Positions 47,712 to 48,395 of a DNA stretch of 64,000 nt are shown here, piece by piece. Every line of letters starts with the position of its first letter. Positions within the stretch are counted from its first letter, which is position 1. A program made the translations under genes and the position numbers. The notes below the pieces were generated by a model. That model did no database searches. It was not told the origin of the DNA and worked only from the letters and a program-made list of their open reading frames with translations. Source of the stretch: Aporrectodea caliginosa (taxonomy: Eukaryota > Annelida > Clitellata > Crassiclitellata > Lumbricidae); NCBI GenBank assembly GCA_020284085.1, contig JACEVL010000461.1, positions 652,001-716,000 on the forward strand. Reading direction: 5' to 3'.

Positions 47712-48395
47712 ATGCTTACCATGGAGACAGCTTATCCGCTTGGTCGGCCTCTCCTTGGAAATGGGACTGTGAGTGTTGATGAATCTGGGCCGAAAGTATC
47801 TTCATCTTTGGAAGACTATCATAACTATCGATTCTATCGATCAGCGACTAGAAGATTTGTACCAAGCATGGTCTCTCAGGAACAAAGAATGAAGTATTGA
47901 AAGCAGAGCATGGACTCTCAGGAACAAAGAATGAAGTATTTAAAGCAGAATCTTTCTGGGGGAGGAACTACGCCTATCGCGGGATTTTACATGCCGCCTG
48001 AAATGAATCCAGTGAAAGATAGGATGCTTCGCATTGGAGAAAAGCCAAAGAGAATACCTCCTAGTACATACTTATGCCATCTTTGCTTTAAGAAAGGCCA
48101 CTATATTCGGGATTGTGAAATGGCCTTTCCACGGAAACAGGGCATTACCTCTTATCAAGGTAACAAGAAATGCCTTGGAGAGTTTATCTGTTACCAGTGT
48201 AATCGGACGTGGAAATCCGGAAATAGCTGGGCCAACATGGGACAAGAGTGTGGAAGATGTCGGGTGAATGTTTACCCTCATAAGCAACGGCCTCTGCAGA
48301 AGGGAAATCGTACACATGAAGCAAACAAGCCACATCCTCAGCATCTGTGTGAAATGTGTAGACGAAAGGGATCATCTTGTCAACTTGGTGACTAA
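47712..48395 (+). CDS. ZCCHC24-like zinc-finger protein captured in LTR-B
   Basis: One frame with a single TGA at 47898-47900. The better start is the ATG at 47721 (ACCATGG context); the next after the stop is at 47910. From about 48058 the protein matches metazoan ZCCHC24 as I know it: PPSTYLCHLCFKKGHYIRDC (CX2CX4HX4C knuckle), SYQGNKKCLGEF, then CYQCNRTWKSGNSWANMGQE, C-x2-C, NVYPHKQRPLQK and PHPQHLCEMC, the 3CxxC-type zinc-binding region. The TGA lies in the first copy of a 43-bp duplication (MVSQEQRMKY / MDSQEQRMKY), where the second copy has TTA. No introns. ZCCHC24 is a putative RNA-binding protein, so an RNA-related role for the element is possible but unproven. Confidence 0.85.

Follow-up and report, generated by a model that had tools for sequence, protein, structure and literature searches.

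How does a cellular gene come to stand inside a retrotransposon, and what keeps it there? The question is raised by a stretch of 64,000 nucleotides from the annelid Aporrectodea caliginosa (GenBank assembly GCA_020284085.1, contig JACEVL010000461.1, positions 652,001 to 716,000 of the forward strand; hereafter the window). In it, a long terminal repeat (LTR) retrotransposon of the Ty3/gypsy type carries, between the remains of pol and its 3' LTR, a frame that an earlier note, made from the letters alone, had read as a ZCCHC24-like host gene captured by a recently mobile family. Our results support the view that this gene, here called ZC, was copied from a ZCCHC24 mRNA of the host lineage into the slot behind pol of one Ty3/gypsy branch.

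The protein domains identify the gene. The 164-aa frame of the window matches zf-CCHC_2 with 43 bits (3.7e-11) and Zn_ribbon_3CxxC_2 with 67 bits (1.2e-18), each against a Pfam cut-off of 27, so that the motifs placed at 48058-48380 in the earlier note are borne out; both families also exceed their cut-offs in two further copies of the gene, L003 and L005. With the 214-aa frame of L005 as query, a search of 5.8 billion proteins (E <= 0.001) gave 128 matches, the best at 2.8e-46. Among the 120 matches listed, those with a named source are animal proteins, most of them called ZCCHC24 and some bearing other automatic names, and none is named as a transposon. For none of the 120 is the score with the element above that with the host gene described below. 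The cysteines and histidines that are invariant across the aligned animal proteins are retained in the element protein. The frame 47712-48395 is intronless, as the earlier note had stated, but it is not continuously open: a TGA at 47898-47900 splits 62 codons from the 164-aa frame.

The gene recurs throughout the genome. A search of the whole assembly (1.098 Gb, 4544 contigs), in which copy counts are lower bounds, found at least 34 ZC matches. When the window element was cut into pieces and compared with the loci retrieved, 20 of these (L002-L021) kept a common order of pol tail, spacer, ZC gene, spacer, a second open reading frame (ORF3) and LTR. The earlier note had left it to such a search whether other copies of the family carry the frame or lack it; they carry it. 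In 18 of the 21 copies, counting the window, the ZC frame is free of stops (L002-L019); the other three, namely the window, L020 and L021, have it broken. Besides the window, 16 copies are open over 214 codons (L004-L019) and one over 215; the first ATG is missing from L013-L019, where the next ATG would serve as start, and the start of L002 is altered. The copies fall into subfamily A (window, L002, L003, L020 and L021) and subfamily B (L004-L019), the LTRs of which match just in short pieces.

By the evidence of its LTRs, the family moved recently. The window pair, for which a likeness of about 99 per cent had been claimed, is 99.15% alike (7 mismatches in 819 aligned bases, plus three gaps totalling 17 bases) and has TGTA on both sides. 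Among ten copies with retrieved flanks, nine have an LTR pair, and eight of these pairs are 99.5-99.9% alike and have 4-base target-site duplications by eye, as expected of a Ty3/gypsy element with TG...CA repeats. The ninth pair, that of L003, differs by 2 mismatches but has large gaps, giving 96.4% by BLAST count; for L013 there was no LTR pair within the retrieved flank stretch. A gag-pol frame of 1601-1602 codons is present in four of the ten (L002, L004, L008 and L012). In L004 and L008 a single 1602-codon frame contains protease, reverse transcriptase (RT), RNase H and integrase in Ty3/gypsy order and also yields capsid and knuckle, the capsid and protease matches lying below the Pfam cut-offs. 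No env family appears among the Pfam matches of the frames behind pol.

The probable source of the gene lies in the same genome. The spliced host ZCCHC24, a search for which had been proposed, is on contig C5, a contig other than that of the window, and consists of four coding exons with GT-AG introns and 275 codons. The element gene lacks all three host introns. The N-terminal parts of element and host also resemble each other, with a score of 50 for subfamily A (reached by 1 of 2000 shuffles) and 47 for B (3 of 2000), and the best of the N-termini of 113 other listed proteins scores 41 against A. This resemblance favours capture within the host's own lineage. Together with the protein search and the recurrence of the gene, the missing introns and the N-terminal score thus uphold the proposed capture of a host ZCCHC24-like gene.

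Intronless ZCCHC24 copies occur in the genome as well. L022, L023 and L025 are intronless across the exons that they contain, and the 275-residue host protein is 98% identical to L022. L022 had at first been taken for the host gene and was rejected as an intronless copy once the spliced gene was found on C5. Compared with the spliced gene over the zinc part, L022 and L023 each differ by 8 synonymous and 0 non-synonymous changes, and the two are perhaps retrogenes in working order. Among proteins with a named source, the closest to a ZCCHC24 retrocopy of the host is one of the chiton Liolophura sinensis, which ranks third by E-value behind two without a name.

The gain of the gene was probably confined to a single branch. 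Of 3715 RT candidates, 131 were scored, and 12 of these are 97-100% alike; all but one of the 12 (C505:950894) adjoin ZC loci. Eight of the 12 belong to frames 1601-1602 codons long, each of them at a locus where the ZC frame is open. The 119 other scored RTs (75-84% identical) all lie on contigs free of ZC matches, and three sister 3' regions (C71, C334 and C262) are without a ZC or ORF3 match. It is from the 119 sister RTs that we conclude on a probable gain in one branch, a conclusion based on the 131 scored RTs; loss of the gene in the sisters is the less probable alternative. ZC is thus an extra frame behind pol, of cellular source and limited to a branch, as a captured gene should be. 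One sister gypsy element, L061 (C334:1310586-1311425), has a different accessory frame behind pol; it is 284 codons long, has a C2H2-like finger that does not reach the Pfam cut-off (0.21), an acidic middle and an EDPIALD end, and had no genome match besides itself at E <= 0.001.

Next to be considered is whether the element has kept the gene under selection. Changes were counted by the Nei-Gojobori method, and the copy pairs are not independent of one another; the Fisher p values are therefore rough. In four pairs split into parts, the ratio of non-synonymous to synonymous change (dN/dS) between copies is 0.18-0.28 in the zinc part; two pairs were tested for an excess of synonymous over non-synonymous change in this part, and gave p 1.1e-5 and 5.5e-7. 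By these counts the zinc part is under purifying selection, with dN/dS about 0.2. As this constraint was measured between element copies, constraint on the host gene before capture does not explain it. Over the whole frame dN/dS is 0.29-0.58 (pairs within A or A against B), and in ORF3 too synonymous change exceeds non-synonymous change (p 8e-16). The comparison with the host gene, also proposed in the earlier note, meets saturation: the proportion of synonymous sites that differ (pS) is 0.87-0.93. This indicates that the capture is old. What is recent is thus the mobility of the family and not the capture itself. Decayed loci on contig C461 (L026/L055 and L029) hold an older version of ZC, which at L055 is flanked by ORF3 remnants, suggesting that the pairing of ZC with ORF3 is itself old. 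In L055 and the adjoining stretch no LTR of the element family was recognised, and an RT of 35% identity lies in the latter.

ZC also persists in copies that have lost most of pol. The window contains a 224-base stretch, 46936-47159, that is not in the full-length copies compared (L002, L004 and L008) and replaces residues ~700-1430 of the L004 frame, namely RT, RNase H and the integrase core. The match runs through this filler in nine copies (window, L003, L006, L007, L009, L010, L011, L016 and L020). As seven of the nine have a stop-free ZC frame, copies without most of pol have retained the gene. The 'pol remnant' of the earlier note is indeed a remnant, but the window holds a pol-deleted member of a family in which full-length gag-pol exists elsewhere. 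The filler occurs in short-form copies of both subfamilies, and its translation has a hydrophobic stretch.

What might the element gain? An acceptor-like motif stands 66 bases past the gag-pol stop and is unchanged in all eight aligned copies. With a matrix composed from general knowledge it scores 12.3, the joint best of the internal part, a score that 7 sites attain when both strands of the whole window are counted. All six other copies inspected share with the window a GTAAGA behind the primer-binding site. A donor after the primer-binding site and an acceptor behind pol is the layout of retroviral subgenomic mRNA, and the conserved motifs suggest that the element makes such a spliced mRNA. 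The zinc protein would be the first gene on it, would use its knuckle and its zinc ribbon to bind RNA, and would act post-transcriptionally on the element's own RNA, in stability, export, translation or packaging. We regard it as rather probable that a ZCCHC24 mRNA was captured into one gypsy branch and kept by selection while the branch multiplied, the protein acting on element RNA by way of the subgenomic mRNA.

Several observations weigh against this reading. The third family expected of the protein, ZCCHC24_C, stays below its cut-off of 27 (16.0 bits in the window, 13.8 in L005) and is not listed for L003, and we therefore call the gene ZCCHC24-derived and not a ZCCHC24 orthologue. Its N-terminal part is without significant constraint (p 0.19 in the pair tested). 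The protein tree joins the element with the host lineage weakly (88/38) and on a very long element branch, and an earlier tree from other columns had placed element and host among insects; with so long a branch and two trees that disagree, the position of the element is unsure, and the trees do not prove capture in the host lineage. The GTAAGA donor scores under the donors listed in the splice-site scan. Finally, human ZCCHC24 is described in PMC11624195 as binding UGUWHWWA, mostly in 3' untranslated regions, and stabilising mRNAs. This motif is not enriched in the element: it has 0 sense sites in all four window segments and in the L004 gag-pol segment and 1 site in the L004 3' segment, all segments lying below their shuffle means. 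Any action of the ZC protein on element RNA would thus probably depend on other sites. Beside these trees stands P0123 (ena), a diverged ZCCHC24-like protein that has an N-terminal YRSA region in common with the host. One tree groups it with the element, each of the two on a long branch, and it is possibly a similar capture elsewhere.

Other explanations of the locus fare differently. That the frame is simply a Gag-type zinc knuckle mistaken for ZCCHC24 deserves almost no credence: its matches in the Protein Data Bank are weak and run mostly via the knuckle, one being a Gag, but the 3CxxC ribbon found with Pfam and the ZCCHC24 protein matches refute it, and gag carries a knuckle of its own (residues 276-293 of the gag frame). 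A ZCCHC24 retrocopy that landed privately in one element copy would have precedents in the intronless L022, L023 and L025; this too is refuted, since the gene has an identical position in the window and L002-L021, and it is common to two subfamilies with diverged LTRs, leaving such an insertion next to no probability. LTR elements often carry captured fragments as passengers, of no use to the element. The unconstrained N-terminal part and the frames broken in 3 of 21 copies would fit a passenger, but the zinc part is constrained between copies, the frame is open in the other 18, and 7 of 9 mostly pol-less copies keep it so; we judge this explanation quite unlikely.

A decoy has somewhat more in its favour, while still appearing improbable to us. 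The protein would then act as a dominant negative against host ZCCHC24 or against a related antiviral protein of the Shiftless type with a zinc ribbon, with no direct service to element RNA. Such a role would suit the invariant cysteines and histidines kept while their surroundings and the C-terminal domain diverged, and the lack of UGUWHWWA enrichment in the element. The ribbon is also weakly similar to UPF0515 (E 2.5e-4 to 2.8e-3, below cut-off), which we take to be the Shiftless family, and the top Foldseek match is human Shiftless (E 0.25, probability 0.96, 39 columns). Yet Foldseek gave no match at E <= 0.001, the TM-score is about 0.2 and the ZC model is of low confidence (predicted local distance difference test, pLDDT, 62). 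Full-length copies have gag-pol in a single frame, so that a blocker of frameshifting would have nothing to block, and no host target is known in the source species. We prefer service to the element's own RNA as the working explanation.

A further locus bears on whether the slot behind pol was used more than once. L025 is a ZCCHC24 retrocopy (protein 83% identical) in frame downstream of a finger-like segment, which aligns with the finger of the C334 accessory frame over 34 residues (score 45; 0 of 2000 shuffles, maximum 36). It is preceded by a gag-pol-like tail of ~14 residues, a likeness by eye, and by the acceptor-like motif CGTTTTGCAG with G after the junction. In its zinc part the ratio of non-synonymous to synonymous change is 0.27 (p 0.0035), to which the host branch contributes too. 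Against a second capture, the search with the C334 accessory frame (E <= 0.001) did not retrieve L025, L025 has no DNA match to L061 or, at 1e-3, to any window piece, and the frame ahead of the tail looks, to our eye, like that of a long interspersed nuclear element. We treat a second capture at L025 as a lead. On a bolder and, we think, doubtful reading, the slot behind pol would be a repeated capture site into which ZCCHC24 was taken at least twice, early in the window branch and later in the L025 sister; elements would then repeatedly need a ZCCHC24 function, probably RNA control, and the captured protein would be Rev-like.

The features of the window element are collected in Table 1.

Table 1. 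Features of the ZC-bearing LTR element, in window coordinates.
Feature	Position	Strand	Remarks
LTR element carrying the captured gene	43938-50363	+	
Target-site duplication TGTA	left 43934..43937, right 50364-50367	.	
5' LTR	43938..44773	+	836 bases; ends TGTGACG...CGTCACA
3' LTR	49545..50363	+	819 bases
Putative primer-binding site	44777..44794	+	by position three bases past the LTR and leading TGG
Putative 5' splice donor GTAAGA	44795..44800	+	abuts primer-binding site; by motif alone
gag and protease frame	45060..46532	+	CCHC knuckle passes its cut-off; capsid and aspartyl protease matches do not
pol remnant	46662..47483	+	pre-RT stretch, filler 46936-47159, integrase C-terminal part
Putative 3' splice acceptor	47529..47550	+	first exon base 47550
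N-terminal part of captured gene	47712..47900	+	ended in window copy by TGA 47898
Open part of captured ZCCHC24-derived gene	47901..48395	+	164 aa; stop 48393-48395
Zinc knuckle and 3CxxC ribbon	~48060-48119; ~48165-48293	+	within 47901..48395
Conserved ZC-ORF3 spacer block	48554..48576	+	p53-like half-site at 48554, TGACGTCA at 48569
Orphan ORF3	48746..49489	+	TGA at 49412 breaks window copy

ORF3 has few relatives. Neither the B copy at E <= 10 nor the window copy at E <= 0.1 matched a Pfam family, and a search of the 5.8 billion proteins gave one match, 100% identical to copies in the present assembly. Its AlphaFold2 model (mean pLDDT 40) was left unused, and its C-terminal half is not significantly similar to the C334 accessory frame (score attained by 478 and 172 of 2000 shuffles). 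The frame ends in DPI(V/L)IDD- or EPITIDD-like residues in A, B and the decayed older lineage (window 49467-49489; L055), which presumably fit a SUMO-interaction motif. The spacer block is present in both subfamilies, TGACGTCA being absent from some aligned copies; its two motifs, which we take to be a p53-like half-site and a CRE/ATF-like site, make an internal enhancer possible. An Rfam scan of 43900-50420 found no family that reaches its gathering threshold. Elsewhere in the window, another LTR element has a frame of 1722 codons at 50825-55993 on the minus strand, in the translation of which an integrase-like part lies upstream of an RT-like part, an order that we assume to be that of Gmr1-type gypsy elements.

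How does this element compare with known systems? Like metazoan ZCCHC24, its protein has a zinc knuckle, a 3CxxC ribbon, the invariant cysteines and histidines and N-terminal traces; unlike it, the protein is borne by a mobile element, is ~56-58% identical to the host protein over the zinc part, has a C-terminal domain under cut-off and finds its target motif without enrichment. From general knowledge, env of gypsy and errantiviruses and retroviral rev share the place behind pol and the likely spliced subgenomic mRNA, whereas our frame has no env family match and is of cellular zinc-finger origin. Captured ORFs behind pol in LTR elements are described as including envelope proteins and enzymes (PMC6431247, PMC5408684). 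As in the gene transduction by retroviruses and LTR elements outlined in PMC6431247, a host gene lies between LTRs and behind pol, but here it lasts in many copies, eight of them with full-length gag-pol. Closest are Juno and Vesta, LTR retrotransposons of bdelloid rotifers with a captured ORF3 (Rodriguez et al. 2017, PMC5408684), in which, as there described, an acquired frame likewise stands behind pol in the place of env, is family-specific, is missing in early branches and has intact invariant residues. Their non-envelope frames are esterases/lipases and DEDDy exonucleases, whereas ours encodes a zinc protein of RNA-binding type; here, moreover, the spliced source gene was identified in the same genome and a second, orphan frame is present. 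Searches of the literature for ZCCHC24 together with retrotransposons, and for LTR elements that capture genes, gave no report of a mobile-element ZCCHC24 among the matches listed.

Captured genes in LTR elements are known, but to our knowledge one is rarely found with its spliced source identified in the genome that carries it, in numerous young copies, under constraint that can be measured, and with close sister elements that lack it. A mobile element with the gene of a host RNA-binding protein as a fixed, selected part offers a chance to see what is gained from a stolen gene. With such a set of copies one can ask directly whether the element keeps the protein to serve its own RNA or to counter the host. 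The set also amounts to a natural experiment on ZCCHC24, which is conserved among animals and on which a single dedicated functional study stood out among the papers listed.
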